Source: Chrysoperla carnea | Lineage: Eukaryota > Arthropoda > Insecta > Neuroptera > Chrysopidae | Length of the DNA stretch: 64,000 nucleotides | Assembly: GCF_905475395.1 (NCBI RefSeq) | Contig: NC_058340.1 | Span: 71,960,181 to 72,024,180, forward strand | Direction: 5' to 3' | In this document: positions 17,706 to 56,960 of the stretch, piece by piece | How positions within the stretch are numbered: the stretch's first letter is position 1 | Layout: every line of letters begins with the position of its first letter | Notes under the pieces: generated by a model | The model's input: the letters and a program-made list of their open reading frames with translations, nothing else | Databases searched by the model: none | Told to the model about the DNA's origin: nothing | Program-made: the position numbers and the translations under genes

Positions 17706-17778
<73 letters not shown>

Positions 17779-23700: not shown

Positions 23701-26700
23701 TACTAGTAAAGATTTTTTAAAACCAATTTCACTTTTCTATTCGTGAAGTGAGAATTCTTCATCTGAAGAATTATGTAACTGCATCTGTTTATAAAAGCAC
23801 TTTAAACCTAGACACGCTACACCTTTCGGTGTAGATTTGTTCTAAAGAATGGCAGTATCCGGTAACCTTATTGTTTTGAAATTTTCTCATACAATTTGCA
23901 CTTTTTTAATACCTGCGTGCTCTGACTGGCACGTGCTGTAAATGAAATTAAAATACGATAACTTGATCATTTTAATGCAATTCGAATGATTGGAAAGTAA
24001 AAAGAAACACATGGTGGAAGCCCTACATAATTTAAATATGAAATTTAAAATTAGCAAGGTTGTAGTATTTTTTCAATGATATTGTTTTTGTAGGTCATGA
24101 ATAATAATGAATTGACCGTCAAATCATTTTGTACGTATCACATGAGTGTAGTAAAAAAAATCACACAAACGTAAAATTTTAACGCGATTATAAAATACGT
24201 CAGCAAAAAAAATTTTAATTAAAAACAATTTTTCTAGATAAGATACTATCATGAGAGTGCTATCAGTTTGTAGATAAAAGTTGTTTTGCGAAATATTACG
24301 AAAATAATTGGGTTAATCTTTCAAGGTTGCTCAATTTTTTTATTTTTACTTCTGGGTATAAAAATGTTTACTTGTTTTTTTATGTGGTCTTAATTTAAAA
24401 TTAGAAATTAAAAATTATCTGAAAGGTTTTTTGAACACAATATTATTTTGTTTAGATGATTTCCCTGCGCATTTGTTTCGAATATTTCTTTGATATACCC
24501 ACTCCGTTGGTAAAGTCGAAGGTCTATTATTCGATCTTCCTTGGAAGAAAATTTAGTTCCTACCATATTTTGATGAAGAATTTGCTTGTAATCAACAAAA
24601 TACTTAATGAATATCAAATAATTTCCTCAAGAGCTAACCATACTTTTCTTTCGAGGCGGAACGCCAGGAAGGTCGCAAACTTTCCTTTGGAACCTGGCTA
24701 CTGTGGAAATCTTATTTTGCATTGTTGCTTAGGCTGTGGATTGAGGGACATAAATCTAAGGTTTTCTTTCTAGCTCCAAGCTCTACATTCTTTTTTGCAT
24801 GCTTTCTATGTTGTTACAACTAAAGTCCATCGACGTCAAAGCTCTGCTGCTGTTCTTAAACAGCTCCAAATGGTTCATGGAGTAATGGTCGAGGATGGGC
24901 CGACCCTTTTTCGGTATCACAACGGACCCTATGGTCTAAGTGTGTCCCATCCCAGGACAGCCACTCTAACCTAACATAACCTATGTTGTTACAAACATTG
25001 CTTTCTTTATGACTTTATGAATCTTTATCTTCAACTTATTGATTTCTTTTCTTCTTCACTTCAGAAAATTTTCATATAAATAATTATATCTTGATTTTTC
25101 AGGTGACATGACCAGTGATGTACTAAGGATAGCTTGTGAAGCGCGCACATCTGTACTGGGACCTTTTCGTCCATCATTCAACATTCAAAATGCTTTATTA
25201 GAAGGAATTGATGCTGTAAGTAAACAAATTCCTTAAAAAAAATTTGATTAAACTTCAACTTGACTAACCACAATTATTTTTGGTAGATTCTTCCCGACGA
25301 TGCGCATATTCGAGTTTCTGGTAAATTACATATATCGTTAACACGTGTCTACGATGGTAAAAATGTCATTGTCTCACAATTTGATTCACGAGAAGATCTT
25401 ATGCAAGCATTATTGGCATCTGCATTTGTACCTGTATTTTCTGGCTTAATTCCACCAAAATTTAAAGGAGTCCGATACATGGATGGTGGTTTCAGTGATA
25501 ACTTACCAACATTGGATGAAAATACAATTACAGTGAGTCCATTTTGTGGCGAAAGTGATATTTGTCCAAGAGATGATAGTTCACAATTATTTCATGTAAG
25601 TAATTTTCATGCAATTTCATACCGCGTTTTCGTTTTTATGAATAAATTTTAAAGAAAATTATTTTTGTTTGCAGATAAATGTAGCCAATACTAGTATTGA
25701 ACTCTCAAAACAAAATATCTACCGTTTTGCAAGAATATTATTTCCACCACGTCCCGAAGTTTTATCAAATATGTGCAAGCAAGGTTTTGATGATGCTTTA
25801 CGATTTTTACATCGTAATAATTTAATAAGTTGTACAAGATGTTTATCCATTCAATCGACATTCGTCGTCTCCGAAACATTAGATGAAAGCTATGAATATG
25901 ATCCACAATGCAAAGAATGTAAATTACACCGACAACAAGCTTTATTAGGAAATATGCCAGACACAGTTTTAAGTATATTTCAAGATGCGATTGAATCGGC
26001 AAATAAAGGATTGGTTAATTGGGTATTCAGACATCGTGGAATGAAGATTTTATCCGTATTGACATTACCCTATACATTACCTGTAGATATCGCTTATGCC
26101 ACATATTCCAAGTAAGTGCAATTTGTATTTTTATAATTTTCTAATATCTATCTTTGTGGAAATATACATTTTTCAAATTCAAAGTTTTATGTAAAAGCGT
26201 TTTCAAGAGAGAATTTTTCCTGTCAAGTTAGATGATTACTCCCTAAAATAATATTTCGATTGCAACGTTTTGTTGAAAATGAGGTTTTCAAAAATAAGTT
26301 ACTTAAACTTATAAACCTTGCAGAAAGATTCTAAGATCTCATTCCAAATTTTGAGAATAAGTCAGTTTAAATTAGCCAAAGAGTCGACTATGTTATTGAT
26401 GCTACTTTTGCTCATCACTAGCTCAGGAATGGCCGGAATTTTAGATCTCTACCTTAAGGTTTTACCGACTCTTATTTTGGTGAATAAAGATAGCTTTTAA
26501 TTGCGTGCGCAAACAGGTGTCGTCAGACTACTGATACCTTTCGAAGTAACAACCTTAAGGAAAGGATATTCAAGAAGGTTCTTCCAAAAGTAGTATATGC
26601 CAGGGATGCACACTCCAAAGAGCTTCGTTTCTGGCGTCTCTTACCCTTGTGAATAAAGATTACCCTTGACTGCATACATGAACAAATGTCTTAAGACTAC

Positions 26701-36996: not shown

Positions 36997-38425
36997 TCAA
37001 CAAACTGGTAAAACAGCCATTGAACAGTTTGTCGATTGTTGGGATGTGTTATCAATACTATTTGTTTCGGAGACCACAGGATGTGCTTCGCATGATAATA
37101 CCCAATCCCATACCCTTTTTGTGACCACACTCTGATCGACGGTAGTTTCCAAACCATAACTGCTCAGTAACCGTTTTAAGCGAGTTTTACCAGCATCTTC
37201 ACTACCACGATCTCGACTTTGTGGTGAATCAGCTCGTTTTACTTGAGCAGAATTTTGTTGTCCTGTTGTTCCCATACAATTTCCACTTCCTTGTTGTGAG
37301 ACATAAGCTGGATCAATCCATGCATCATTTAAATATTTATTCACTTCAGCCACAGGCGATCGTTTTTCTGGTTTATGTTCAAACATACGACGGAACATGC
37401 GTAGTAATCGTGGTGTGAAACGCTTAAATTGATGTGGAATTTTGGTAACTCGCCTTTTTTGGTACCTCCAAAAACTTGCATATGCTAAATCTCCAATACA
37501 ATCAGCACTTTGCCAAGGCGGACATCCAGTTAAACATACAAATATCAATATTCCCAATTGCCAGGTATCATTCGCTGCTTTACAATGGTATCGTTCGTTG
37601 CTAAGCACTTCATATAACTCTGGTGGAACAAAGGGTGGCCATGCACAACGTGGTTTTGAAACAAGGGATCCTTCTTTTCGCGTCACCCCAAAATCACATA
37701 GTTTAACTTTAGATAATTCCGCATCGAATACCAAAACATTTTCTAATTTTAGGTCACGGTGTACTAGTTCTTTTGTATGCATAAAATCTAATGCCGATGC
37801 TAATTGTCTTGCGATTTCCTTACAAGCTTTCTCGTTTAAACCACCACTTCGTACACATCCACTTAAATCGCCAAGTGGAGCGTATTCTTGAGCAAAAAAT
37901 AAACATTTATCTGCCCGGAAGCAAACGGCATACGACGATAAAATATGTGGATGGGGACTTAGATGATAGCTATAATGATATTCCCGTTGGAAATCCTTAA
38001 CAGTTGTTAATTCCGTATGTACACCTTTTAATACAACCGTTGTATTTGTATCACGATGTTTCGCTAACAAAATTTGGGCAAAACATCCTTCAGCTAATAT
38101 CCGTTCAATTTCATATTCTTCATTTAACGATAATTGTGGTATTTGTAAGTCTTGGATACGATGGATATTCCCACCTCCTCCAGCCCCAGCTGAAGATGAT
38201 GAGTGATGATGTTTCACTGATGTTCTACTAGTCGTAGTTTGATGACTCTCAGGCGGATTGACAGTCGTCGAACTACCTCCATCTGAATGCACAGATGTAG
38301 CGATTGCTGGGGTTGTTGTAGACCGTTCAATTCCTCCAGCACCACAACGAGATTTCCCACCATGTTGATTGCCATTGCAATCTTTCTCCTTTTTCCTTCG
38401 TCCAGACAGCCTCATACTGATTGAT
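36997..38425 (-). CDS. meng: SBK-like kinase, main coding exon 2
   Basis: A single 1429-nt exon with a TTTTGATTACAG acceptor (AG at 38427-38426) runs to the stop at 36997. It contains the entire kinase domain without introns. The open frame extends upstream through the acceptor (38451), but those codons are intronic. An internal ATG at 38415 (MRLSGRRKK) would also serve as a start if exon 1 were absent. Confidence 0.93.
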
Positions 38426-39365
38426 CTGTAATCAAAAAAGAAAATAATCAATTAATTTTTTTATTAATCGAATCAGTGACGCAAATGTTTGATTGTAGGT
38501 GGCAAAAATAAATGACAGAAACAAATGAAAAACGCACGGGTGGGTTGCTTGTCATAAGAAAAAAATGTTGATTTAAATTAATTTCAAGAAAATATAATAA
38601 TTTTCCTCAACCTACGCGCACCTTGGTGGTGAAATACAGTACAGACAATGAAATATACAGATTGAATTACGTGTTTATAACGCTTCCACCCTTTTATAAC
38701 CCATTCCACCCTTCAAACACCTCCACCTATCTCTGTTTTATGAATATGTATGCAATGTTTGTTATTATTACATAAATTTATATGTAATAAAATTATTAAT
38801 ATAATATTGCTCGGAGATGTGGGTTGATTTATTAAATGGTAAAGATTTTTTTTCTTCGAATTGGGAAAATAATTTTCTTCGAATTGAGTTTCTTGGGGTT
38901 GCACTTATTATACCCTGTATATATGCCCAAATATATATTATATATTTGATATGAGTCAGTCAGCACGATAAGTCAAAACTAAAAAGAGATATCGAGTTAT
39001 ATCGATTTTTTATGCTCAAAGTGTAAACAGTGACTAAAAAAAGAAAAAGGGGTTTCAACTAGTTAGTCTTGTAAAATATTTTGATAAAATGAAAAAAAAA
39101 GAAGATTTATTTGTCGAAAATTTTTTGAAAAGAATATTCAAATGGCGGCCTAAAGGTTATTGGTTTTCTTGTGGATGCACTTATTTTTTGTTAAATTAGT
39201 TTCATTTACGGGTAATTTAGAGAAATTGATTTTCCGGATATCTGTTACACGCTGTACATGTATTTTTAGTTGCATATATGTTATATTTAGAAATGGCGCC
39301 TATACGAGTTATAAATGTTTAAAAATAACGTATAAATCGATACAAAGATACATAAGAAATATATA

Positions 39366-39413
<48 letters not shown>

Positions 39414-42400
39414 GATAGCATACGTTATAGGTGTACATCGTTAAACGAGTTATGGTTACTGTAACCAGGTAAATATACCAAGAAATGTGACATAGATGAG
39501 AGTACTGTGTGTTCTAAAAAAAGCAAGCAAAATTCGAACTAGATGAAAATCGATATCCCGGATTTGATTGCAATCTTAGTCAACGTACTTAATAAACGTA
39601 AGTTTAAAAAAAAAAATAAAATAAAATAATTCATATGATTGACATTAATGCGTTTTTTTTATTATATATTAAGTAAAAGTAAAATCTAGAAAATTTATTG
39701 GAAAATATCCAAATTTCTGTTTTTCATCAATAAAAAATTGATTTTTGATTTTGTTGAATATATAAAATGTCATAAATTACTTCCATATTTTTAAATTGAG
39801 CTGCTTGGATGAATCATTTTAATATCTTTTTAGTTTAATAATAAAATCGTACAATTGAACTAAAAATATATTTAATTTGTTAATAATTGCGCTCTTTTTA
39901 GAATATTACAAAAACAGTTTATACAGAGTGTATCAAAAGTTCTTTGGTATGTATTTTTAATCATAATTTAATTAATAAATTTTAAATGAGTTTTTTGATC
40001 TCCAATAGAGAATATCGATGATTTTTTTAGCATTTCTAAACAAACTATGAAAAAACCGTAAAAGAGATGACAAAACGTGCAATTAAAATTAAAATCAAGA
40101 AATACGATCGGTATAAGCATTTTAAATTACTAATTTGACATTAGAAGGAAAGATTGAACATAGTATTTGACGTCATATACTATGATTGCCTTATAACTCT
40201 ATGCTAAATTCGTTTTGCTAGAAAGAGATACAAAGAAATCATTGATGGCTTTTATTTCGGTTTTAAGCAAAAACGAGGAAATTTGTCATGGTAGTAAGTA
40301 AATAGTTTTTTGGTTCAAGAAAATATTTACTTGCAAAACTTTACTCTGTAAAATTTTCCTGGTTATAAGAACAGCCAAGTAAACGCATTTTGGCGTTTTG
40401 TTGTGTTACAAAATTTTTCAATTTTTGCTGTGTAACAAATAAAATCGTTGAAGTTGGTCTAAAATTTTCATGAAAATCGCTATTTATTATTTGATTGGTC
40501 ATTTGAAATCGCTTGAGATACTCGAGAAAATTTAGTCGAGAATTCTCGTGCCCCAAGAAATATAAAAGGTCAGAAACTAGACTCACTAGTTTGAATGCAT
40601 GGGCTGTGAGGAAAGAGTTAATGTCCTTCGAAAGTATTACATTTTTCCAGAAAATTACAGATTTTCGATTATTCCTTGTTAGTAACAAACCCTAAGTCTG
40701 TATTATTATGATCGTAGTAAATACTAAATATTTTCTTCTTTGAAAAATATGTTTTTTTAGAAAGTGGGTGTGAATTTTCTACACCCCTCCGTCGTAGGCT
40801 GTACCACGTGATGAAATAAAAACAAAATAATGTGTAGGCCGCTAAATTGTTATTTTTATACTCACATAGAATTTATATTTGATGTGACAACTAAATAACC
40901 TTTGATGCTTATGATTCTACTCGCATGTAATCGTCCTTTTAATGTGTGTTGTTAAGGATATATTTGTCGACAAATTATAGGATCACCTTCTTCTGATCCT
41001 AATCTAAAGGTGTTGCAATGGGTGGGTATATGCAGGTGAGACCTACGCACCACATAGAGGTAGGTACATATCGATGTTAGTTTGTGTAGGTAGTACGGTT
41101 TTCAATCCAGCATGGTTGTAAAATAGTATATTGTACTACGAGTCCGTTAAATTGTCAATTGAAAACACGTGAAGGGAGTTAAAGACCTTTTGTCCTTCGA
41201 GTGTAATAGACAACTGTCACGAGTTGCATATAGTACGAAATATGGCACCGTCAAGGAAAACTTGATTTTAAGACGGATGGTTTCTGGCATCTAAGAGCGT
41301 TTGCTACGTTTACTAGAAGCAATTTAAAAAAAACATTGCTGAATAATGCTTAATGTAAATTATAATTGAAGACAGATTTGCCGTTGCTAAAACCGCGAAA
41401 GAAAAAATTTTAATAACTATACATTTTCGAATAATTTTAATAGGGCAGTAGTTTTTAACCCCCGAACCAAAAAAAGGGGTGTTATAAATTTGACCGCTAT
41501 GTATGTGTCTCTGTCTGTCTGTCTGTGGCATCGTAGCGACTAAACGGATGAACCGATTTTGATTGCTTTTGTTTCGTTCGAAAGGAAATTTAATGGAAAG
41601 TGTTCTTAGCTATGTGATCTTCAAAATCGGCTCAGTTTGGAGAAGGCTCGAAGGAAAAATACCATTTAATGGAGAGTGTGCTAAGATGTGTTTTAAGTGC
41701 GAGTTTAGGGTTCCGAATACGAAAAATTTGTCTAGGTTTTTTAAATTTTGTAAATTTCAATTGTAATAGATGCGATATTACTTCTGTTTTTCTGCACGAC
41801 TAGCCGTGCAACGACAAGTAGCTATCGCCACTTAAGTGACAAATCATTACAAGGAAAATCGTGTTGAAAAGGAAAACTAATCCCGCTTTCCTATGATGGA
41901 CTTATGAGGTAGATGTATCCCATTTCATTTGTATTTCTAGATACTCTTATTTTCAATTGACATATTCGACACTTGTTGCACAATATACTAATATAAATGG
42001 GTGAATTTTATTATTCGAGGTAGAAATTCTATTTTTATATATTTTTATATCTTTTTAAGGTTTTTATTTTTATATATTTTATTTGATTTTTATTATAGAT
42101 TATTATTTTATGTGAAATATGTTCGCACTAGTATTAAATATATGAAATGAAAGTATTTTTTTCTTTTACACGTGTGACATATTTATTTTATTATTAATAT
42201 AATATCTATATTTGCTGAGGTGAATATAAAATTTTCCATTGTGAATTTATTTTGTCCCAGATTAATTTGGTAACGTCACGAAAATATTGTTTTCAGGTCA
42301 GCTTCTTTTCGAATTGAAATTTAATCTGGTATACCGAGAGCCCTGGCGTTTATTGCATTTACTAGTGCTCTTTCCCGAAAAAAGCTTCTAAAAATTGCTG

Positions 42401-45400
42401 ATTTTAAAATCATTTAAGGACAATTTTTTAAAAATCATTTTTCATGTCCTTTTGGTAATATAAATTATAATTGCGAGACTGTTTTGCGGTTTTGAATACT
42501 GCGTCAGATATTATTCTAATAATTAAGGATAATTACCTGGCGGATTTTTAATTTTATTTGAAAAAATTTTCCTCATTTACGAAGATTTAACTTTCATGAA
42601 AAATTGAACATAAGGAATAAAATAATTAAAATAAGTGTTCTTATTGTTTCAAACTATATCAAGGATTAGAAATTAAAAAGGTCGAAAAATTCGACAAAAA
42701 TTTTGTTTATTCAAATTTGATAAAAACTTGTAATATAACAAAATTAAACAATTTTTTTTTACCTAATAGTCTAAGTTGCCTGTAAGGAGGGTGAAAATTG
42801 ATGACCTTTTTTGCATTAGGGAATAAAATAAGAATTTTCAAGGAAGTTGAAGAATTATTCTTCCCATTATAATATTGTTTATAAGAGTAAAGTTCTTATA
42901 AACTCATGAAACGTAGTGTTTTAGGTTGATTTTAACGAGCTCTTAAAAAATAATTTAATAAGGGTAAAATTATTAACATCCTAATTATGAAAAGTCATTA
43001 CATTAAAAAAAATAACAAAAAATTGTTGAAAATTATTTTTATATATATATATAGCAGCACTACAGGCCTAGTAGGCCCATGGCTTTTATGGAGACTTAGT
43101 CTCCCTCTGCTTCCTTTCGTAGATAACTATTTATGTTAAATAAACGTATATTCATGTTGTATCAAAACGTTTACGTAACTATAAAAATTACACTCATACA
43201 ATTCGTTAACATAACGTGATACAGTGCAGCCACTTAACAAATCACAAATTTTATAAATTTTTCACATATTTTGGTTTTAATTAACTACCAGTCCACAGAA
43301 GTTAAAAAACAATGAAAACTTTAACACTTATGACTATGTGGCGTAAGAGACTTTCAAAAAAAACAACTGTTTCACACTTTTGCATGAAAAGGATTATAAC
43401 TTATAACAGACAACAAAAGATAAACTATAAATTTTTAACTTTTAACAAAATAACAAACGATAAACTATAAATTTTTAACTTTTAACAAAATAACAAACGA
43501 TAAACTACAAACTTTTAAACCATAACAATATGTAAACTTTAACAGACACGTAACACACTATAAACTTTAAAAATTTAACTTTTCTTTTAACATTTTAGAT
43601 TTTTTGCTTTTGAGCAGATTTGTCTCCATCTGATTCTGTTCTCAGCTGCTTGTTTCCAATTATGGATTCCTAGCTCTTCCAAATCTTCTTCTGCTGATCT
43701 TAACCACGTGTTTCTGGGCCTGCCTCTCTTTCTTCTTCCTGAGTTTCCTCTGACTAACACCTGCCTTGCTGCTCTATCCAATGGTAATCTAAATACATGG
43801 CCCAACCATCTCAATCTCTGCGCTCTAATGGCGTTTGTAATACAAGGTTCTTTATAGAGTTCGTAAAGTTCCTGGTTTGGTCTTCTTTCCCACAAATTCA
43901 TCACTTTCTTGCCTCCAAAAATTGTTCTTAATATTTTTCTTTCCCATATATTCAGGGTGTTCTTTTCTTTTTGGTTTAATTTCCATAACTCGGAACCATA
44001 CATAACTGTTGGCCGAATTATGGATTTATAAACCCTAATTTTTGTATTCTTAGATAAATTTTTGGAAAAGAAAAATTTTCTTAGGGCTCCAACACTTCTT
44101 GAACCTTTGGCGATTCTTTCTTGTATTTCTGGAGTTTCGTTACATTGGTTGCATAAAGTAACACCTAAATAGTTAAACCTTTGAACTTCTTCGAACTTAT
44201 AAACCGTATCGTCGCTTACTTTAACTGTAAGTACTTGTTCCGTATTCGATGGGGTGCTTGACGATCGAAGTTTCATGTATTTAGATTTATTCTCATTTAT
44301 CATTAACCCTTTCGATTTTGCTGCCCGTTCAAGATTTTTAAAAGCGGCAAGAAGGTTTTCCTTTGTTCTTGTAAGGATTGTGATGTCATCTGCATAAGCT
44401 AGGCATTGGTTTAGGTGGTCGTATATTGTTCCGCATGCATTAATTCCGCTCTCTCTGATCACAGATTCTAGGAGTATGTTGAACAGTGTAGTGGATAGTG
44501 GGTCTCCTTGCCTCAGCCCTTTTTTGACGTCGAATCCATTTGAGGTGTAGCCATCAACCGTAATTTTATTTTTGGTTTCGTTAAGGGTCATTTTCACAAG
44601 CCTTATCAATTTTGGTGGTAATCTCAACTCATCCATTGCCTTGTATAGCTTACTTCTGTTCAGTGAGTCATATGCCTGCTTAAAATCAATGAACAGCATG
44701 TGAAGCGGTAGATTTTGCGCGTAACTGCTGTCTTGGATCTGCTTGACAGTAAAAATTTGATCAATAGTTGACCTATTTCTACGAAAACCACACTGATAAT
44801 CCCCTATTACATTTTCAATGACATTTTCAAGCCTATTTTTTATTGTTATAGCCAATATTTTATATGTTATGTCTAGCAGTGCGATTCCCCTGTAATTATC
44901 ACATATTGATCGGTCACCTTTTTTAAATAAAGGTAATAGCAGCGCACTATTCCATCTCGTAGGCATTTTTTCCTGCTTCCACACCTCACATATAAGTTCA
45001 AAAATCTTATTATGCATTTGATCACCTCCCTCTTTAAGCATTTCTGCCGTTATTCCATTTTCTCCTGGGGACTTGTTATTTTTTAGTTTCGCAATAATGT
45101 TCTTGATTTCCATAAAGCTGGGAATTTCTTGCGAATCCTGATGATCCCTTACATGGACTTGTTGTTCAATGTAATCTTCCTTATTATTGAGGATGTTTGA
45201 GAAATATCTTTCCCAGCGATTTAACTTTTGATGAATTTCACCAATGAGCTCCCCATCCTCGTTTCTAATAAAAACTGGGTTCCTTTGTGTGGTTTCATTT
45301 AAACTTTTCACACCTAGGAAGAATTCTCTCGACTGCTTTTTTGAAAAATGGTCTTCAATATCTATTATTTTCTTCTGTAGAAACAATCTTTTTCTTTGTC

Positions 45401-48400
45401 TGCATAGATTCTTCGCTGTTTTCCTTAAAAACTTGTACTTTTCTTCGTTTTCTATTGTTTTGTTGCTCAACCATTTTGTTCTACTAGCTTTTCTGGCTAT
45501 TATTGCAGCTTCGCATTCTTCATCGAACCAAGATCTCCTATTTACCTTTGCCTGGCCTTGTAAGGTAGTCCCTGCCATCTCCAATATTCCTTCTAGATAT
45601 TCCCAGTCTTGATTAATACTAAGGACTTCATCATAACATTGTAAATTTTCATTAATTACCTCTTGGAATTCAGTTATCTTATTTTCGTTTTTCAGTTGCT
45701 CCGAGTTAAATTTTATTCTTTTTGTTACAGTTTTGTTGACTGTCTTCGGTTTCTGAATTCTCAATTTTGCTGCTATCATTATGTGGTCAGTGTTAGCATC
45801 AGCTCCTCTATAACTCCTAGCGTCGGTAATGGTTGTGAAATGCTTATTTTCAATTAGGATATGGTCTATCTGGTTTGTCTCTCCAGTACCGGGTATTATC
45901 CATGTGCCCTTGTGAATATCTTTATGTTGGAAAAATGTTGTTACAATTTTCATCTCGTTTTCCATAGCCAGCTCGATCAGCTTTCTTCCGTTCTCATTTG
46001 TTTCGTTGTGTTTGCTATGGTTGCCTATTACTGGCTTATATATATCCTCTTTTCCTATTTTGGCGTTGAAATCACCTAGCATTATCTTTAAATCATAACT
46101 GGGAATGGTTTTATATAGACTATCTATTTTTCCATAAAATTCATCTTTAATTTCTTCGCTTTTGTCTTCTGATGGAGCATGAATGTTAATGAAGCTAATT
46201 TTTCTATACTTGCTTCTGATTCGTAGCATGCATATTCTGCCAGATATCGGCTTAAAATCAACCACTGTGTTCTTCATTTTAGATCCTAATAGAAAACCTG
46301 TGCCAAACATTCTATTCTCATCGCCACTATTAAAAAATATGTAATCGCCGATCTGACTTGTGCTATTACCTTTTTGTTTAGTTTCCTGCATTGCCATAAT
46401 GTCTATTTTGTACTCCTTCATTATTCTGGTTAGATTCTGTAATTCACCTTCAGCAAAAGTCCCTCTTACGTTATATGATGCCACTAACATTTTTTTGTTT
46501 CCATGTTGCTTACTCCTTAATTTTTTATTTCTGTTTACTATGTTTTCATTCGTTGTATTTTTTCTTGCCATATTCGTTATCGTTTGGTCTGTGCATTTTA
46601 CATTTCCTACTTTTTTGGAGCTGCGTTTTCTATTTCAAGGGTGTCCATCTCTCTGTTCCATACCCACTTTATGCCATTTATAATTAGTTTGTTAAATCCT
46701 ACTTTAGCAATATTTCCCTTTTGTCTTTCATTTCTGGCAACATCTCGTATTTGTTTCTGGATTCCTCGTTCCTTCACCGTTAAATCATTTTCGATATAAA
46801 TCTTTCCCCCGGCATAACTACGTAGCTTATTTTTATTTTCCATCACTTTTATTTTTGATTCGAAGCTAGCCATTTGCACAACAGAGACCACATCATTTAA
46901 TCTGTGGGCGGATGCTATTTCGACATCAACTTGAAGATTTTGTTTGATGAAATTTTTTATGCCTTCCGTTATCTGAGAACCGTTATCTGAGTTGAGCTTA
47001 AGACCCTTTATAATAATGTTTTCTTTGCGTTTTTCTTTTTCATATTGCTCTAATTTATTTTCAACTTTTACCATTTTATGTCGAGTTTCTATTAATTCTG
47101 TTTTCAACTCTTTCACTTCCGTTTCTAACTTTTCCATTTTCTCTCTATATTCTTTGTTTTCTCTCCTTATCTCCTTTATCTCAGATAGCATTATCTTTAA
47201 CATCTCCTGTGTGCTTATGTCATCCTCATTACGATTTGTTGCGGGTGAGCGCAACACTTTTTTACTTCTCTTGAAAACTGATCCGCCATCTTGCTCCCTT
47301 AATCTTTTTTTGTCTCCAGATGTGAAATCTTCGCTATCCGACATCTCAATTTCGTTCTTATAGAATAAACTTATAGTTTCAACAATTATCACTCAATTTT
47401 CCTTAAATTTCAAACAATCAGTAAATTATAAACTTTAACACTCTGGGAACTGTAAAATTTTCGGAATTAACGATCTCTGAACCCTCCAGCGGTTAACAGA
47501 TATTTAAAAAAACCAAAAAAATTCCAAATAAAAGAGTTTTTATACTTATTCGATTTTAGGCTTTTGCTTAAATAATAATCTGTGATATTTTTAAAATTAA
47601 CAAATCATATATTATTTATTACGTAGAAAACTATAAAACTTTAAAAATCAAAAATCTAATTAACATTTCACCAGCACTATCAACATTAATAAAAAATCCT
47701 CAGTTTTTTTTTTTTTTTTTTTCTTTTTTTTTTTGAGTTTATATATTATTTATAACGTAAAAAAGTATAATACTTTAAAAATCAACAATTAAATTAACAT
47801 TTCACAAGCACTTCCAACATTAATAAAAAAAACCTCAAAATTTTGAGTTCGACCCTGCCCAAATCACATTTGACAAACACAATAAGGTACTAACACGTAA
47901 ACAAAAATGACACCCGAATCAACTTCTCGGAGGTTATATGTCTGTTTATCAGCCTATACACCACAAAAACTATTTAAATGATTCGAAAAATTTATGAAAA
48001 TAGTATTACACTGTTTATTTAACACTGTTTATTTAACATACAAAAACTTGTAACACTCACACCAGCTCGAAATACTCCAAGTTTTTGAAAATAATTTCGG
48101 AGCTGTTAGAAACACGACTTTACTTAAACACCGCCAGGACCGTACCGTATATAATTATAAAAAAATTTTCAAAGTAATTTTCATATAATATTCATAAATA
48201 ATAAACAGTACTGACGTCAATTGAAGAAAAAAAATAATATTTTTCAAAAAAATTTCAAGTAGTTTTATGTAGTGGTTATACGCCGGTCTCTTATTCTAAA
48301 AAAGGGTCGTGATTTCGGTCAAGGCAGTACCAATATCAACTAAAATCAAGTATTCCTTCAAATTAAAGTTACAGTTAATTCGAATTATAAGAAACAAACC

Positions 48401-51400
48401 TGTTAAAGTCAAATCTGTGAAGATCTATTTCCCATCCATTTTTTTAGTTGGCTCGCCAGTGGCTTTACGAATTACACTTTGTCTTGAGAATATTTTCGCC
48501 TAGAGAAAATTGTATTGTTTCGGGAATTTCTCGGACTCTTAAAGTATTGCTGTATTGATTTTGATTTTGACGAATGATGTTTTCAAGATACGAGAAGCGA
48601 AAACAAGAAGCGTAATTTGTAAAAGCTGAATTTTGTCTAGATATTGATAGCAAAAAGATTAAAAACTGAATTTCAAATTATTATAAATAATTCAAAGTTA
48701 AACTGAAATACAAATTGTAGGACTGGGCTGGAATTATTATAAGAAGTTATAAGAATTATTATAAGATTTTTGTTGTAGAATCTAAATCGGAACACACAGC
48801 TCTTTTTTTGAGCTAGATATCGGTCTATGTTGTACCGAGGTAAGATGAAAATTGTAATGATTTGTTTATAAATATGATTTTATACAGCTTTTTAAAAAAC
48901 ATGACTGCCAAAATTGTTTTAAATTAATTGTTAATTTATTATTTTATTTATATTTAAAGAGAATGTTATATATTTTACTCAAAAATATTTGAGTTTGGTT
49001 GTAGGCATTTAAAATTTATTAAATCCTGTACGATTATAATTATTCGAAAATATAAATTAAACAGATATGACTTTTTTTTTATTAAATATATAAAGCTTTA
49101 TAAAATATTTTGGAAAATTTAAAATTGTGAATACGCATTACTCAGAAATATTACTCATATTTTTATTCTTGATCGTTGAATAATCGATATATTTAAAGCT
49201 TATAGTGGTCTTGTACCCAATTTTATGTTCAAAATTAAACGATCGTTACGTATTTTATTATTTTTGAAATTTATTAGAAAAGGACGTGTTTCATCAACAG
49301 AGATGATTATTGATTTCTAATTAAGAGAGAAATTATTGAAAGGCCAAGGTAAATTGATTTAAATTTAACAGATTAATTAATTTGAATCCTTAGTATGAAT
49401 TACTACAACCAATTATCGGAAGAAGAGAGAAAATGAAGGGTGAAATAGATCACTAAACGATACCGTATGTTAAATAAATTCCTAGAAATTTAATTATTTC
49501 ATGGTAGTTTCTAAACAATATTAATGTAATTAGAGCGCATTAAATTTTCAAAATTACAATTTAAGGGAGCAATTTCGAATGGGATTTGTCAAGAAACGAA
49601 TCGATGTAACTGAGAATCGTGGTCGATTAACGTAGAAAGCATTCACTTGAGCTTTCCACTTTCTCTCTTTGCAAAACACAAAGTGGTGTAAATATTTTCA
49701 GAAGTTTCTTATAGTATATTCTTTGAAAGGGTTCATTTAAACCCTTTAAAAGTTGATTAAAAAATATATGAACCATCAGAAATCACGGTGTAGGTTTTAA
49801 GTTCGATATTCCATAAATAAGAATAGTATTAATTATCGATTATAATTAAAAAAAATTTTCGTAAATTACTAGACGAATTTTCATCAAAATCGATTACCAA
49901 ATTTATAACGAAAAAACCTTTTTTATCGCGATTATAAACTTTTTTAATTTATATAAACTTTCAATACATTATGCCACTTTAATTTGAAATTACCTAAATT
50001 AAATTAATTAAAATAATAAATTAAATATAAAATAAACAGATCTGTCTGTTATTTATATATTTAGAAACAAATTAAATCAATAAATATATTGAAAAACTAT
50101 GCAAAAAAATAATAATTCTAAATTTAATATTAATTAATTTCAATTATAAATATTTAAATGAAAATTCTAGACGTTAAATAACAGAAAAAAAAATTAATTT
50201 AATTTAAATCAGAATCTGTTCATTTTTTTTTTACAAATTTATTATAAATATATTTATATTAAATTTTCAATGTTAAAATTAAATTTACAAGTAATTTTCA
50301 ATAAATTTAATTTCTTATAAACATTCATTTTATAACCGATAATTTTATTTATTTTATATTATATAAAAAAAACACAATAGTTACGTCATTAATGTACACC
50401 CGCACTCATGTGTGCGGTTGTGACATAATAAAAAAAAAACATCATTTTTTATAATGACGTTATAATGATAATATAACAATGATGATGAAATTGATAACAT
50501 AATTCTGTATGTTTTTTAAGTTGATTGAACTGAAAATTTAATTATTTACAGTTAATAAAATATTAATTAAATATTGACACGTTCTGTATAGATATAGATA
50601 AGATAATCTTCTCTTTCGATGTGATGATGTAATATTTACAGGTCATCACGTGATTATAAAGGATTATTAGTGTGGTGAACAAATATTTGTTCTAAAATTT
50701 TAAGCATCGAAAATATAGAGAGATATTATCGTTAAATATGTGTTGAAGATAATAAAAAATAATTGGTTAGGTCAAGGAAGGTTGACACATAAAAAATTCT
50801 TTCATGTTCGTAAAAAATTTTTTTAATGATACTTATTGATTGATTTTTGTAATTATGTCAAGTTCGGCGATCTGTTGGTGGCCAGAAATATTTATTGATT
50901 TCACTTATAGATTACAGATTTTTCAAAAACAATACGTAAATTTTTGAAAATTTCTTCAAAATTCAAAAGTTTCTATCAAGAAGATATCAAAAATTTATTG
51001 ATCCTAAAAATAGAAAAATTTGTCTTCCCGCTCACTGCAATTTTAGTTGGAAGCATTTTCACGAGACAATTCCCTCTGAAAGGAATGTTTTATGCATAAA
51101 ACGACATTAAACACAAAATTTGATATATTTGGGCGAATATTGATTACAAAGAAAGTTAATCTTAGTACAATTCAATACTATAATGCGAATATAATGTTCT
51201 ATTTTTCTCTTCTTTTAACCCTAGAGAATATTACCATTACGTCATAGAATTGTACTTGTAATTGAGTATCCGGCTCGAAGGACCAAAAGTGAGTTTATTA
51301 AGTCCATAATTATTTTAGATTGCGTGATATAATTTTAGAAATAGAAAATTCGTGTAGATTAATATATTAATTCTTTAAATTTTAAAAATCGGGAATCAAT

Positions 51401-54400
51401 AGTTTTTTGCGTAATTTTTAGTAGATTTTTGAAATAAAATTCAATAAAACTTTCTTTTCTTAGTTTCAATGAATTTATTTATGATAATGGATCGCTCAAA
51501 TACACTTTTTTTTCGCTGTGTCATAAGATATCAAATTTTGAGACAACCTCGATTTATTTTGTCTGTATGAAAATTTATTTTTAGTTTGTTCGAATGAAAT
51601 ATAAAAAAAAGTGTTAATTACTACTTACAACAAACATTATGTAAATTTTTTGTTGTTATATTTTCTAAAAATAAATACACAATGATTATTTTTGGATACG
51701 CTTGTACAACTACTGTTCTTTTACATTTTAAGCGCGCAATGACGTCAATCAACTGAAAACTGCATGTAAGTCTATCGGTCTGTTTGTTTTAATTTTTTGT
51801 TTGTTTGATGATAGAGATTTATAAATAGCTTAGCTTTTTTCATTTATTTACAATACTATGTCATTGAACTAAAATCCAAAAATAAAAGTTAAGGCTATTT
51901 TATTTTCGAATTTAAAAAAAAAAATTTTAATTAGTTCGTAATCTCTATTCAATCATTTTGTCATTTTCAGACTAGGTAATGACAAGTGCTTGACATAATA
52001 AATCAAAAATTTTCATTATGAAAAAAAAACAAATTTTTTAATTTGTTAATTGGCCTTTTTCTTGTCTAGTTTGGCCTACTTATCGAATGTTACATTATAA
52101 ATACAATGTAATTTTTCAAGATTACATCCTTGAGTAGTTATAGATTTCATGTTCATTCAATTCTCTGCGCATCGCTTCGTTAATAATAATTTAACTTCCT
52201 TCGTTTATTTATAAATTAAATATAAATAAAAACTACCCAAGTTTCTGCATATGAAAACTAAATAAATTTAATTATCGTACTCGGAAAACTATTAATAAAA
52301 TGAAAATTGTTATGAGTTTTTACATCTGTGTGTACGTACAGACATCGTACATGGGAAATTGGATGAAGTATGTGTTTAAACACTGTTTGTAAAATGTCGT
52401 GTACTTAAATTTGTTTACTTTTACAATCTCACAATATAAACATTTGCATCCCCCTTTTTTAAATATACAGAAATGTAAATATAACAAAACTGGTGGAAAA
52501 TACTTCGTTTAATCATTTTAATTAAATCTAATTTTCATGAATGTTTACTTTTGTCATTGGTGTTCAGGGAAATATTAGTTTTAAATTTTCTTGATATAAA
52601 TCATTGACGAGAGAAGACTGTTTAACTGAAAATTAGTTTAGAAATAGTCTAAATATTAAAAAGAGCAATAATTTATCCGGCTCGAAGGACCAAATACAAT
52701 AATATCCTCAAGGTAAGAATGGCTTCATATTAAAAAAAAAAAAAAAAAACTGCAAATGACTTAAATTAAGAGTAATGAGTTCTTAGAAACAGGGCAATCT
52801 TAGAAATTGAGAATCCTTGACAATAAGATGTTTTCGTTATTACTCTAAAGAATGATACCTACTTGTAATAAGAATAATTTTGAAAAGTTCTGTCATCCTA
52901 TCCATTCTACGAAACGTAATGCTTAAATCTTTTGATGAAGCAATATTTTGTTGAATTATTAACGGCTCTTATTCGATACAGTTAAATTTGTGCTCCAAGA
53001 AAAAAAAACTTGATGTTTTGACAAAATTTTGGCTAGCCTCATTTCGAAATGATTCATCATCACCATGACAAAATTATTATATTTATACGCTACTGGTTCG
53101 TTGGCCGACTCTATGTGCATCGTAAAAGTGAAGAGAGAGTTAACTCAAACTTAATATGACTTGTGCTATAATATTATATATTCAATTTAAAATACGAAGA
53201 TGATATTTAAAAATAAACTTATTTGTAGCTAAAATTAGCGCGTGTCGTTTTATAAATAAAATAAAATGTGCATGAACAACAACAACAACAAAAAATAAAA
53301 AAAAATAAACAATCAACATGAACATGCCACCAGCTGTTAACAGTGTACAACAGTTGACATTAATTTTAAATGAAAATTTTTCAATTCAGTTTCTATTTTC
53401 AATTTTGTACTACTATAATTTTATCTTTTTATAAAACGCGACGGGTTATTTCTCATTAAGAAAATAGTTTAGAAAGTTGAGGTACTATATTTGTGAAAAT
53501 TTATTACAACTTGAAAATTATGATTATGAAAAGTTCGTCGAAAAATTGTAACGCCTACCTTTGGGAATTGATTTATTTATTAGTTTTTAAAAATGCATTT
53601 ATGTATCCGGCTCGAAGGACCAAATTTGAAATTATTAATAATCCAAATCTCCTATACTTGAAGTTAAGTTTACGTCCAGAAAGCTAAATATTTTAGAAAT
53701 TAATAAAAGAGAACTCTAAATATGATATGAAACTCTAAAAAACCTTTTTTCAAAAAAACAATTCTTTAAAGTATTTTTTTTCTTTAATCATATTATCCGG
53801 CTCGAAGGACCAAATATTAAAATTTATTAAATGTAATTTTAAAATAGAATTAAATAAAAAAATTGCAATGCTTCCCGAATCATATTTAAAATATCCTTAT
53901 TGTATCTTATTTTCTGAAGGGTTTTCGAAAAGCCTGTAGAAATACATTAAAAAACTTTTTCTAATGATTGATCTAAACTACGAAATTTGTACTGAAGAAA
54001 TGTATTATATTATTACCGTATCGCCTAAACTATAATTTTTTGGTTTTAGAATACCAGGTTACTTCCCATTAAGAAATAGGATATTAATTTTAATTTTTTT
54101 GAAAAAAAATAACATATGCCGTCACACGTGAAAATAATATTTCTTAAACATCAAAGAAAACTTTTTTTTTTCTAGGCCATCTTTCATTTATGAAATACAC
54201 AAGAGAGGAAATGATAATTAAATTCGAAAACAAAAAAACTTTCAGTTCAAAAACTAAACAAAAAGTTTATATTTCCATGTAAATAAAAAACATTGCCTTC
54301 AAATCTAATAATTAAAAAAAATATCATTTTATTTCGAAATGATTGGAAAATTTCTTCGTTGGTTTTTTCCCTAAACAATATTATTGTGTTAAAAGGTTTC

Positions 54401-56960
54401 ACCACATTGAATTATTAATTGGATTATACAAGACATTGATTTATATTTATTTTGGAGGATGGAGTTTGTGGTTGTAGAAAATGATTAAGAAACTTGTTGG
54501 AAAGTTCTATAAGATACATAATTAAACATTAGTCTACATAATATAAGCTTAGATAAAACTATTAGTTGATTACGAAGATAAATAGGGTGATTCATTCAGT
54601 TAAAAACAGCCGAAGAAAAATTTTTATTTAAAAGTATTAACATATCAATGTTTTTGCGAATGATTTCGTCGGTTATGACCTTAAAAGTAATATTTTTACT
54701 AATTCAATTATAATTTGCATTGACTAAAGAGCCTAGAAAGTTTTCGTAACGAAATATTTACAATTTTCAGAAACAGTTTGAAAATAATCATCATTTATTA
54801 ATTACTTTTTATGCGTGTATTTTTTTATCCGGCTCGAAGGACCAAATGTGTGTATATCATATACAGTTAAAATAGATGTTGATCAACAGTTTGCTTGTTA
54901 AAGTTTGGATAAGTCAAGAGTATAATTTTGTTTCAACTCCAAAAACATACTACTATTTGTGCCCATGAAAATAAGCTATCCGATTTTAGCTTAATTACCT
55001 TGTATTTGTTATATATTATTCTTGCGTCATTTGCATTTTCCTTCTTAATTATTATTCATTATAAAGATATATCTCCCCTCTTTCATTAAACTATAATAGT
55101 TATTGGCAGGCATGTTTTGTAATAGTTTTTCCAGGCGAACTGTTTTAGACAGACGGACTTGGAGGTATATTTTATGTAGATGATATAACATTGATTGTTT
55201 TTTTGAGGGTAAGTTTTAGGTCAAGGATTCTTTTTTAAAAGCTGTTCATAATTTTTTTTCCTTAAAGCACTTTTGTTTTGCTATTATAATACGTGTGAAT
55301 AACATGTTATTTAATTTTTTTGTATTTGAGAATAGCCTTCACCTGTCTGTGTAATACTTTCAAAATAATCTCAGATTTTTAAGAATGTATATTTCAGATA
55401 TAATAAGGTTATTATTATAGGTTGAGTCGAAAGTTTGTAGTGGCCCATTTCATCAAATCCGTCGGTATTTCTCTTTGTCTATATTGTTATGAATACAAAA
55501 AGAGCAAGGGGTGTTGTGGGACACCCGATAAGAACTATATTCTTTCCGCTATATATTATGTTTTTTTTTTTAAATTTTAAAATTATTGTATCAATGAAAA
55601 TTCAATTTCCATTGGTTTCAAATGACTTCAATTTCAACGGTAGAAGATTTGTCGCATCGATTTGTTACTAACACCTGCAATCAATCATTTTATGGAAGCA
55701 CTTATTTTAGTGTTCAAATAATTTTTTTGAGTTTGTACCATTTCCCTTAAGAGACAAAAATTTCGCTTTTTCACTTTTCAAAGACTTGAAAAAGCACCCT
55801 AATGGAAAATATACCTTTTGTTTTGCTACTTTTTTTTGGTACCCAAATCAAAGAAATTTGAATAAAACGCCATGTAAAAATGTACACTCTGTATACAATA
55901 TACAGGGCGTATCATCTTTCTTCGGTTCTTACATATATACGTCATAAACTTTCCACACAATATAATCGAAGTAGGTACACAAAGCACGTGACGTTATTGT
56001 TTCAACAGGGGGACGATTATATTCATACCGTCAACAACGTGAAACACAAATTCATACACACTGTTACGCGTGTTGATGCTGCGTGCGTATGGGTGGAAGT
56101 GAATGTGTGTATGTATATGTGAAAACGATGACGTCAAACGTCTCAAAACGATAAAATGCGATATTTTCTATTTTCATTTCAATCTAGAATTCGATAACAT
56201 AGAGAGATGAGAATCTCTATTACATACCGGTAAATCCTATGAGGTAGCTACGCATACGCAATAATTGTACGTAATTTTTTTCTTTCGCGACGACATTCAT
56301 TTATCGGTTAAGCATGAAAGTTACTCATATGGAAAAGGGTTCTTGAAAAACGTAATTTTGCATAAAAAAACACATTTATTTTGTCTCTTTTATTGTCAAG
56401 GTGTTTAATTGTGAGGTAAACTCCTTCAATTTATTTTCTCACCTAGTTTTGCTTATAATTTATATTTTAACCCAGAAAAATTTTCTAAATATCATTTCCC
56501 AAAGATTTTTAGTTGCAAAAGTGAAAGGATATATTTTTAGAAAAGTTATTTAACCATAAAAGATTAGTTAAAAAAAATTAAAGAAAGTTTTTAAATAACC
56601 CAGAAAGTCTCAACTAAAAACTTTCGAAAAAATCTAAATATTATCAGGAATTGAAAAATTGAAAAAAGTATTATCAGGAATAATACTTTATAACAATTTT
56701 CACAAATAGTTTTTGGGTTAAAGCTAAAGCGCCATCCTACATTGTTTTTCGAAAAACTTTCGGTATTGTTCGGAATCAAAATTTGACATTAAACGATTTG
56801 TATGTACACAAGAAAGCTCTCTATTGACCTTGAACCCCAAATTGAGAAAATATATCCCCGGGTTTTGATGTCAATAAAAGAAAAAGAAGAAAGATTCTTA
56901 CCTGACGAGCATTGTGAGCGGTTTTTTTTTCTCCAGTATTTTTTTTACCAAACGTCTCAT
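36997..56960 (-). CDS. meng: SBK-type serine/threonine kinase, meng-po (SH3-binding kinase 1)-like
   Basis: Two coding exons, 56902-56960 and 36997-38425, give 495 residues across an 18.5 kb intron. The N-terminal stretch is short and basic, followed by a low-complexity region rich in Ser, Thr, Gly and His (residues about 24-110). The kinase domain starts near residue 122 with EEYEIERILAEG. The glycine loop is degenerate (AEGCFAQ). The ATP-binding lysine is Lys153 (TVVLKGVH). FAQEYAPLGDL is diagnostic of the SBK family. The catalytic loop HRDLKLEN begins at 242 (Asp244), DFGVTR at 264, and the activation segment ends PPFVPPEL. All catalytic residues are present, so it should be active. In flies the orthologous group is linked to neuronal CREB signalling and memory; that is family knowledge. 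The C-terminal tail is Ser/Gln-rich. Confidence 0.85.
39359..39411. repeat. (TA)n microsatellite
   Basis: Over 20 TA units. The short frame across it (39160-39414) is an artefact of the repeat (YIYIYI). Confidence 0.95.
41455..41760 (+). repeat. Interspersed repeat with (CTGT)n and ACGGATGAACCGATTTT motif
   Basis: GGTGTTATAAATTTGACCG, then TCTGTCTGTCTGTGGCATCG and ACTAAACGGATGAACCGA match a repeat type that I know to be common in many insect genomes. Only one copy lies in this window. The small frame 41563-41766 is part of it, not a gene. Confidence 0.5.
43421..43510 (-). repeat. 40-bp tandem repeat in the LINE 3' UTR
   Basis: Units begin at 43421, 43461 and 43501 (the last is partial). The shared unit starts TAAACTATAAATTTTTAACT on the plus strand. 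The two full units are identical. Confidence 0.85.
43587..46571 (-). CDS. LINE ORF2: APE-type endonuclease and reverse transcriptase
   Basis: 994 residues, uninterrupted. The endonuclease/exonuclease/phosphatase domain spans about residues 26-270, with SYNVRG (Asn34), QETK (Glu63), GDFNA (Asp167, Asn169), QIDHIL and a terminal TDH (261-263), so its catalytic set is complete. The reverse transcriptase lies at about 495-800: SPGENGI, CDNYRGI, GFRRNRSTIDQ, FIDFKQAYD (Asp629), GLRQGDPLS (685-693) and the catalytic YADD (726-729). The C-terminal part has WERKILRTIFGG, RLRWLGHV and a GRRKRGRPRNTW motif often seen in insect endonuclease-reverse transcriptases. There is no RNase H and no zinc knuckle. 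It would nick target DNA and copy the element RNA by target-primed reverse transcription. The ATG lies 35 bp after ORF1. Confidence 0.93.
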   Translation of the reverse strand: MARKNTTNENIVNRNKKLRSKQHGNKKMLVASYNVRGTFAEGELQNLTRIMKEYKIDIMAMQETKQKGNSTSQIGDYIFFNSGDENRMFGTGFLLGSKMKNTVVDFKPISGRICMLRIRSKYRKISFINIHAPSEDKSEEIKDEFYGKIDSLYKTIPSYDLKIMLGDFNAKIGKEDIYKPVIGNHSKHNETNENGRKLIELAMENEMKIVTTFFQHKDIHKGTWIIPGTGETNQIDHILIENKHFTTITDARSYRGADANTDHIMIAAKLRIQKPKTVNKTVTKRIKFNSEQLKNENKITEFQEVINENLQCYDEVLSINQDWEYLEGILEMAGTTLQGQAKVNRRSWFDEECEAAIIARKASRTKWLSNKTIENEEKYKFLRKTAKNLCRQRKRLFLQKKIIDIEDHFSKKQSREFFLGVKSLNETTQRNPVFIRNEDGELIGEIHQKLNRWERYFSNILNNKEDYIEQQVHVRDHQDSQEIPSFMEIKNIIAKLKNNKSPGENGITAEMLKEGGDQMHNKIFELICEVWKQEKMPTRWNSALLLPLFKKGDRSICDNYRGIALLDITYKILAITIKNRLENVIENVIGDYQCGFRRNRSTIDQIFTVKQIQDSSYAQNLPLHMLFIDFKQAYDSLNRSKLYKAMDELRLPPKLIRLVKMTLNETKNKITVDGYTSNGFDVKKGLRQGDPLSTTLFNILLESVIRESGINACGTIYDHLNQCLAYADDITILTRTKENLLAAFKNLERAAKSKGLMINENKSKYMKLRSSSTPSNTEQVLTVKVSDDTVYKFEEVQRFNYLGVTLCNQCNETPEIQERIAKGSRSVGALRKFFFSKNLSKNTKIRVYKSIIRPTVMYGSELWKLNQKEKNTLNIWERKILRTIFGGKKVMNLWERRPNQELYELYKEPCITNAIRAQRLRWLGHVFRLPLDRAARQVLVRGNSGRRKRGRPRNTWLRSAEEDLEELGIHNWKQAAENRIRWRQICSKAKNLKC
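46607..47344 (-). CDS. LINE ORF1: coiled-coil RNA-binding protein
   Basis: 245 residues from the first ATG at 47344; the open frame extends 16 codons upstream but without ATG. There is a basic N-terminus (KRLREQDGG, FKRSKKVLR). A heptad-rich coiled coil covers about residues 45-105 (MEKLETEVKELKTELIETR). Then an RRM-like ENIIIKGLKL strand (108-117), SAHRLND, and a C-terminal YIENDLTVKERGIQKQIRD segment as in L1-type ORF1 proteins. It should trimerise and coat the element RNA. The layout (coiled coil, RRM, C-terminal domain) is L1 ORF1p-like, while ORF2 is not L1-like. Confidence 0.82.
   Translation of the reverse strand: MSDSEDFTSGDKKRLREQDGGSVFKRSKKVLRSPATNRNEDDISTQEMLKIMLSEIKEIRRENKEYREKMEKLETEVKELKTELIETRHKMVKVENKLEQYEKEKRKENIIIKGLKLNSDNGSQITEGIKNFIKQNLQVDVEIASAHRLNDVVSVVQMASFESKIKVMENKNKLRSYAGGKIYIENDLTVKERGIQKQIRDVARNERQKGNIAKVGFNKLIINGIKWVWNREMDTLEIENAAPKK
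47607..47860 (-). repeat. Two ~134-bp tandem units in the LINE 5' UTR
   Basis: ATATATTATT begins at 47607 and again at 47741. Between them ACTTTAAAAATCAA, TTAACATTTCAC, GCAC and AACATTAATAAAAAA recur in order. Each unit ends in a poly(T)/TTTTGAGTT tract. This resembles the monomer arrays that drive some LINE promoters. Confidence 0.7.
48265..48345 (+). repeat. Possible SINE-like fragment
   Basis: TGTAGTGGTTATACGCCGG, then CTCTTATTCT, then GGGTCGTGATTTCGGTC have weak A-box and B-box character and resemble the 18.8-kb sequence. Tentative. Confidence 0.25.
50379..50465. repeat. Nested imperfect palindrome with ACGTCA motifs
   Basis: CCGCAC..GTGCGG around TCATGT sits inside a wider symmetry, TTACGTCATTA at the left against ATAATGACGTTAT at the right. 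It is GC-richer than its surroundings. Confidence 0.4.
51267..51287 (-). repeat. tRNA-Tyr 3'-end / PBS-like 21-mer, copy 1
   Basis: On the plus strand it reads T + ATCCGGCTCGAAGGACCA + AA. The 18-mer is exactly the 3' end of insect tRNA-Tyr (T stem, acceptor strand, discriminator A, CCA). On the minus strand, the strand of the host kinase transcript, it reads TGGTCCTTCGAGCCGGAT, a textbook 18-nt primer-binding site for tRNA-Tyr. The flanks are unrelated to the other copies. Confidence 0.9.
52674..52694 (-). repeat. tRNA-Tyr 3'-end / PBS-like 21-mer, copy 2
   Basis: Identical 21 bases, same orientation. Preceded by AAGAGCAATAATT and followed by TACAATAATATCC. Confidence 0.9.
53604..53624 (-). 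repeat. tRNA-Tyr 3'-end / PBS-like 21-mer, copy 3
   Basis: Identical 21 bases, same orientation. It lies inside a small chance frame (53493-53687). Confidence 0.9.
53794..53814 (-). repeat. tRNA-Tyr 3'-end / PBS-like 21-mer, copy 4
   Basis: Identical 21 bases, 190 bp after copy 3, same orientation. Flanks AATCATAT and TATTAAAATT. Confidence 0.9.
54826..54846 (-). repeat. tRNA-Tyr 3'-end / PBS-like 21-mer, copy 5
   Basis: Identical 21 bases, same orientation. Flanks GCGTGTATTTTT and TGTGTGTATATC. Confidence 0.9.
56129..56136. promoter_or_regulatory. CRE-type palindrome TGACGTCA
   Basis: A perfect cAMP-response-element octamer in the kinase intron, about 770 bp inside the first donor. It lies in a GC-richer block (55980-56150) unlike the surroundings. 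Function is inferred only. Confidence 0.3.
56902..56960 (-). CDS. meng: SBK-like kinase, first coding exon
   Basis: An ATG at 56960 opens 19 codons plus two bases, ending at a strong CAG|GTAAGAAT donor. Joined to the acceptor at 38426 it reads through AG|A into SISMRLSGRRKK in the same frame. An in-frame TAA lies 9 bases upstream of the ATG, which fixes the start. The encoded N-terminus (MRRLVKKILEKKK, then PLTMLVRSIS) is short, basic and partly hydrophobic, which could aid membrane or protein docking. A second in-frame ATG is at 56912. The exon is predicted from donor quality and frame only. Confidence 0.65.

Follow-up and report, generated by a model that had tools for sequence, protein, structure and literature searches.

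Clustered copies of a tRNA-Tyr primer-binding-site sequence in Chrysoperla carnea as candidate sites for a nuclear DNA-binding factor

Why should an intron of a kinase gene carry five identical copies of a sequence that corresponds both to the 3′ end of mature tRNA-Tyr and to the primer-binding site (PBS) of Pao retrotransposons? The question is raised by a 64-kb stretch of DNA, hereafter the window, which belongs to C4 of the 559.5-Mb Chrysoperla carnea assembly. We have analyzed this array together with the copies of the motif found throughout the genome, comparing their flanks, their variants and their arrangement.

The array and its host intron

The kinase ORF at 36997-38451 of the minus strand is Chrysoperla carnea meng-po, identical over 98% of the ORF length. 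Its first coding exon (MRRLVKKILEKKKPLTMLVR) occupies 56901..56960 (minus strand), while the second coding exon, which contains the kinase domain, occupies 36997..38424 (minus strand), its start being set by comparison with P0002. The intron between them (38425..56900, minus strand; 18.5 kb), the first coding intron of the gene, holds the five copies, each composed of a T, the 18-mer and AA, at 51267..51287, 52674..52694, 53604..53624, 53794..53814 and 54826..54846. The exact 18-mers start at 51268, 52675, 53605, 53795 and 54827, all five on the plus strand and hence antisense to the gene, and the array lies 2.1 to 5.6 kb downstream of exon 1. Including around each copy ~50 nt of decayed yet related flank, the array extends over 51217..54896 (plus strand). 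A first-pass annotation of this DNA had described five identical 21-mers of one orientation in an intron of a host kinase; the identity is exact and real, with all five 18-mers extending to a single 21-mer, and the host is meng-po. The restriction to one intron applies to these five copies, but not to the motif as a whole, which occurs as 53 exact 21-mers across the genome.

No further match to the 18-mer with up to 3 mismatches was found in the 64 kb, for which shuffled sequences gave a mean of 0.01, nor did the window contain matches to the motif with 1-4 mismatches. Three matches with 5 mismatches, at 24644 (minus), 41190 (minus) and 41641 (plus), may be decayed copies; the reversed control gave none, and the latter two share the meng-po intron with the array, ~10 kb away from it. 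Neither tRNA genes nor Rfam families were found in the window (0 Rfam matches), and searches of viral_contigs for the exact 21-mer and the exact 18-mer returned 0 and 0 matches.

Other features of the window were also recorded. A non-LTR retrotransposon at 43587-47392 (minus strand) occupies the same meng-po intron, oriented like the gene, and its two ORFs, encoding a 1015-aa endonuclease-reverse transcriptase and a 261-aa upstream product, are long and open; a 40-bp tandem repeat at 43397-43518 comes after it. From 62878 to the end of the window at 64000, a 315-bp unit is tandemly repeated in 3.6 copies; this array contains TGATGACGTCATAA, which is present at 622 as well. At 13724-29385 (plus strand) appear exons resembling a patatin-like lipase gene, which we take to be brummer-like.

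The assignment of the 18-mer to the 3′ end of tRNA-Tyr with its CCA could be confirmed, as it equals positions 59-76 of the mature lacewing tRNA-Tyr. With introns allowed, ARAGORN detected tRNA-Tyr(GTA) in the three loci given (L050-L052), whose genes end in GGTTCAAATCCGGCTCGAAGGA with the CCA absent from genomic DNA; run without introns, it assigned L050 to tRNA-Leu and made no call for L049, L051 and L052. The base before the 18-mer is T in 5/5 window copies and A58 in the three tRNA genes read, in agreement with the mismatch that had been pointed out in the first-pass annotation. A genome search with the tRNA-Tyr 3′-end pattern yielded 127 places at up to 3 mismatches; at one tRNA-Tyr 3′ end, C2:80934493-80934517 (minus strand), a genomic CCA follows, perhaps by chance or as a retropseudogene. 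A control 18-mer from the 3′ end of tRNA-Lys gave 0 genome matches, a result of little weight, as its letters may not be those of the lacewing tRNA-Lys.

The limits of the match are suggestive in themselves. Many eukaryotic tRNAs carry m1A at position 58, where reverse transcriptases either halt or misincorporate, the latter varying with the next base and T being among the outcomes (PMC13191261, PMC4787781). Provided that lacewing tRNA-Tyr is assumed to bear m1A58, a PBS would be limited to 18 nt and could have T as its next base because of this stop or misreading.

Genomic copies and the resident Pao elements

The exact 21-mers are distributed almost evenly between strands (28 plus, 25 minus; reversed control 0), and 343 places match the 21-mer at up to 3 mismatches (control 0). 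For the 18-mer, the same tolerance gave 509 places (control 17), a count that can take in tRNA-Tyr genes, which differ from it just in the last three bases. Exact 18-mers number at least 100 and at most 141 genome-wide, the upper bound being the 145 places obtained with A>G allowed minus the 4 variants among the first 100.

Flanks were read for 49 of the 53 exact 21-mers (5 in the window, 24 in loci L009-L028 and 20 in L029-L048). Twelve of these 49 copies belong to two repeat families, F1 with 10 copies and F2 with 2, where the LTR end of F1 was judged and F2 was assigned by eye from the flanks; the other 37 are solitary. In the F1 locus L018, an ORF in the PBS sense adjoins the motif and encodes Peptidase_A17 (‘Pao retrotransposon peptidase’), DUF1759 and RVT_1, and DUF1759 is also found beside the motif in the F1 loci L025 and L026; the one short frame scanned in a further F1 locus, L024, had no domain match. 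Since these Pao domains adjoin the motif in the PBS sense, the F1 motif is a PBS. The window copies, too, possess the 18 nt, complementary to the 3′ end of a tRNA, by which a BEL/Pao PBS is known. The proposed resemblance to a Pao-type PBS was therefore well founded, resident Pao elements of family F1 carrying the motif themselves.

It could be argued that all copies are ordinary 5′ ends of BEL/Pao elements. This holds for F1 and F2, that is, for 12 of the 49 copies read, but not for the window array, at which no LTR element was recognized, as had been noticed earlier, and where we saw neither an LTR end near the PBS nor Pao frames beyond it. Likewise, in 16 solitary 9-kb loci, inspection by eye of ORFs of at least 90 aa noticed no Pao frames. 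A weaker version of the argument regards the copies as remains of old Pao elements or PBS regions that were retained by chance. The presence of the motif in two repeat families, one of them a Pao element, speaks for such an origin; nevertheless, solitary copies outside F1 and F2 share no flank with either family over the 120-150 nt compared, and among the 71 solitary copies no TG end recurs at a constant distance, T being found at offset 20 in 35/71 and G at offset 21 in 11/71, which equals background. We regard such relics as a quite improbable source of the copies, also in view of the cores considered below.

The copies are strongly clustered. In a sample of 100 listed places (60 exact copies and 40 C>T variants from C1, C2 and the first 10.5 Mb of C3, with the F1 and F2 copies kept in), 54 had a neighbour within 5 kb; over 1000 random placements this number averaged 0.42 and never exceeded 4. 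Of 35 adjacent pairs at up to 5 kb, 27 have both copies on one strand and 8 have them on opposite strands. Several arrangements occur: copies dispersed over kilobases, as in L014, L019, L027 and the window; tandem copies with a 24-bp period and 6-bp spacers, two in L062 and three in L063 (C1:5.715 and 5.717 Mb); and, in L061 (C1:595650-595900), a perfect 24-bp inverted repeat whose arm consists of CTCTTTCA and 16 motif bases, with a loop of 8 nt, which could be the source of a small-RNA hairpin. Around L013, a FERM_N exon (minus strand) and PHAF1 exons (plus strand) flank the cluster on opposite sides. Clusters fall in the outer tenths of C1 in 22/34 cases (6.8 expected) and of C2 in 8/19 (3.8 expected); we dropped this enrichment at chromosome ends as evidence for being unspecific, 7/12 of the F1 and F2 copies sitting there too. 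An analysis of 8-mer enrichment around the copies, meant to reveal a further common motif, yielded just weak, mainly AT-rich words.

Decayed flanks, intact cores and sequence variants

The first-pass annotation had held that the window copies share nothing beyond the 21-mer and stand between random flanks. This part could not be maintained, as the flanks retain residual homology: at 3-27 nt from the motif their pairwise identity is 0.429, compared with 0.343 in composition-preserving shuffles (0/3000 reach it) and 0.311 at random local positions (0/4000 reach it), and at 3-51 nt it is 0.385 versus 0.331. The comparison was extended to 17 strand-sets, made up of copies with up to 3 mismatches from the window and the 9-kb loci, with the four F1 loci dropped. 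In 8/17 strand-sets (L010, L013, L014 plus, L014 minus, L015, L017, L021 and the window) P was below 0.01 at 3-27 nt, L027 (0.027) and L011 (0.057) were marginal, and in 7/17 (L009, L016, L019, L020, L022, L023 plus and L023 minus) the flanks were at background, a result compatible with independent origin and with saturation alike. At 3-51 nt the values were 0.013 for L015, 0.22 for L027 and 0.55 for L011. Random-position controls alone made L009 and L011 significant too, and composition accounts for both. Judged from these identities, several clusters, that of the window included, look as if they had grown by local duplication, L021 (0.92) being a recent case and the window, with its flanks near saturation, standing at the other extreme.

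The five window cores, on the other hand, show 0 differences. This suggests that the array arose by local duplication long ago and that its core is under selection, and the main evidence for constraint is precisely that five identical cores stand between decayed flanks. Of the two options formerly offered for the strict identity, recent spread is contradicted by flanks near saturation, whereas constraint agrees with them; the same intact cores argue against relics. Ten duplicated pairs point in the same direction, with a flank divergence of 0.169 and a core divergence of 0.061 (Fisher 8e-5), but they carry little weight, having been found through their cores and six of them coming from two loci, and with one copy of each pair taken as fixed the expected core divergence is ~0.085, so that most of their force is lost. 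Homotypic regulatory clusters are marked by cores that are conserved while the flanks of the clustered copies are not; this combination was found here, together with flank homology in 8 of the 17 strand-sets.

The identity of the copies also involves bases outside the tRNA match. T was found at −3 in 17/29 loci (one copy each, drawn from the 71 solitary copies), and among 34 solitary copies unselected for these bases, 19 have T at −1, 22 have A at +1 and 26 have A at +2; F1 and F2 have identical bases at those outer positions. As the preferences extend past the tRNA match, the recognized unit looks nearer to the Pao PBS context than to the tRNA. The T at −3 and −1 and the AA after the CCA, shared by solitary copies and F1/F2, are equally what relics would display.

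Could the copies instead be retroposed fragments, that is, products of reverse transcription of mature tRNA-Tyr that ended at m1A58, giving T at 58, and were inserted as 19-mers? The exact 18-nt limit and the T at 58 fit a stop or misreading at m1A58 (passages in PMC4787781 and PMC13191261), and the five window copies, taken alone, have short direct repeats (P 0.001 to 0.07). However, 66 solitary copies show no excess of flanking direct repeats (P 0.09 to 0.55), and clusters, common flanks and preferred bases beyond the 18-mer are unexpected from naked insertion. Target-site duplications, suggestive in the window alone (P 0.001, 0.014), were discarded as an indication in view of their absence over the 66 copies, which also speaks against the earlier idea of a tiny retroposed or mobile unit. 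We rate this origin as very improbable.

Variation within the core is markedly one-sided. In one genome stretch, the single-type variants beside 60 exact copies comprised 40 C>T, 9 G>A and 2 A>G, six of the nine G>A places being the ATCCAACTC form, which may be another family. The 34 variant solitary copies in fetched sequence exhibited 31 C>T, 8 G>A, 5 G>T and 4 C>A changes, the rest being 3 A>G, 2 T>C, 2 A>T and 1 T>A. C9>T is the commonest core change and G10>A is rare, a difference incompatible with CpG decay, which predicts both to be equally frequent. G·U wobble with an antisense guide was rejected too, for C>T fits it but A>G is rare. A recurrent form, ATCCAACTCGAAGGACCA, with two fixed changes (e.g. 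C1:67052485, C2:14576033 and C3:241768), perhaps represents another PBS or tRNA family.

This spectrum bears directly on the most serious alternative, in which tRNA-Tyr 3′ fragments, catalogued as ‘miR-2779’ or ‘miR-7550’, would pair with the motif complement in pre-mRNA, resulting in guide regulation or a sponge. The complement is present five times in the meng-po pre-mRNA, and small RNAs equal to or containing the 18-mer come, according to passages of the respective reports, from a mosquito cell line, thrips, silkworm and corn rootworm. As printed there, the 18 nt appear as miR-2779 in the Aedes albopictus cell line (PMC3888459) and as the tpa-miR-7550 primer (PMC5042526), and they are included in an Ostrinia 20-mer (PMC4614346) and in a silkworm 20-mer with T at 58, ATATCCGG... 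(PMC3699532). Corn rootworm has dvi-mir-2779a-f, with six named loci (excerpt of PMC9170749), whereas for three Lepidoptera a passage of PMC4408404 states that the precursors were unconfirmed as homologous and the miRNA was dropped. In L027, an exon-like stretch at 1324-1491 (plus strand), with an ATG and a splice donor and no Pfam match, has motif copies on the minus strand at 3133-6492, 1.6 to 5 kb downstream, the same antisense arrangement as at meng-po (n = 2), and the L061 hairpin with its 24-bp stem is possible.

Nevertheless, C>T in the motif means G>A in the target, which breaks pairing with the tRNA fragment and yet is the commonest change. Variation that would preserve pairing through G·U, namely G>A and T>C in the motif sense, was not borne out for G>A in the stretch analyzed (40 C>T, 9 G>A and 2 A>G), and the one-sided spectrum is the opposite of what pairing with tRNA-Tyr 3′ fragments allows. 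Moreover, close pairs are oppositely oriented in 8/35 cases, and host-gene orientation was obtained for two genes alone. Flanking stem-loops were rejected as well: no precursor stem could be derived from the flanks of 62 copies, four of them F1 (10.55 versus 10.37 shuffled, sd 0.30), the exceptions being L010 and L061 with its 24-bp inverted repeat. Of the earlier suggestion of a decoy, a sponge or guide-target sites, the complement in the pre-mRNA stands, but the variant spectrum weighs against the function, and we deem it unlikely.

A putative reader of the primer-binding site and its known counterparts

The reading that we favour, tentatively and with slightly more doubt than confidence, is that the array is a homotypic cluster of sites for a lacewing nuclear DNA-binding factor that also reads the Pao PBS. 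The recognition site would comprise an 18-bp core within the consensus TNT-ATCCGGCTCGAAGGACCA-AAW, and the putative reader would be a sequence-specific nuclear factor, for example a zinc-finger protein, recognizing as well the identical tRNA-Tyr PBS of resident Pao retrotransposons. Selection would then act via protein binding to DNA, the factor would silence Pao, and the cluster in meng-po intron 1 might function as a silencer, enhancer or insulator. Such a factor by itself does not account for the tolerance of C>T but not of G>A changes in the core. A further step, which we consider rather doubtful, is that the PBS has turned into a genome-wide cis-regulatory site of the host, so that a factor originally selected against Pao elements now depends on bare 18-bp clusters near or in genes, meng-po among them. 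The reports of ‘miR-2779’ precursors suggest that other insects may have such sites too.

Should selection indeed maintain the core in host DNA, then a sequence dictated by the chemistry of reverse transcription (18 nt, as far as m1A58) would now serve the host as a regulatory site, and this would link anti-retroelement recognition with gene control in insects. It would also offer a possible explanation of the puzzling ‘miR-2779’ entries as a tRNA-Tyr 3′ fragment mapping to bare genomic copies. A full-text search of the mostly open literature retrieved no description of such arrays in titles and abstract openings.

A host DNA-binding reader is plausible because there are two precedents. One is the repression of retroviruses by ZFP809 and ZNF506, both of which bind PBS-Pro (PMC10602909, PMC4587795). 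In these KRAB zinc-finger repressors of mouse (ZFP809) and human (ZNF506), as described there, a host protein reads the PBS of a retroelement as DNA, the mode that we propose for the lacewing; they differ in concerning tRNA-Pro and vertebrates, while the lacewing reader is putative, and in that 37/49 lacewing copies lie outside the two repeat families. The second precedent comes from gypsy, whose leader contains a zinc-finger site that is also clustered elsewhere in the genome, Su(Hw) binding gypsy plus many endogenous sites. The likeness ends there, as the sequence is another one, the Su(Hw) site is not a PBS, and an insulator role in the lacewing is hypothetical.

The remaining relatives of the motif are the PBS itself and the catalogued small RNAs. 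Like the BEL/Pao tRNA-Tyr PBS, it has 18 nt complementary to the 3′ end of tRNA-Tyr, and the F1 PBS shares with it the T at position 58 and the adjacent AA (TT spacer). Achilles of the olive fly is an LTR element using a tRNA-Tyr PBS, BEL and Pao being among the terms listed in PMC4580426. In contrast to a BEL/Pao PBS, solitary lacewing copies lack an LTR end at any constant distance and are clustered 24 bp to some kb apart. The miR-2779 and miR-7550 entries of several insects, in the passages cited above, comprise the identical 18 nt, or 20 nt containing them, with predicted precursors, but they are catalogued as microRNAs; we consider them probable 3′ fragments of tRNA-Tyr, in part carrying an m1A58 misreading, for which genomic copies of the lacewing kind may be the mapping sites.
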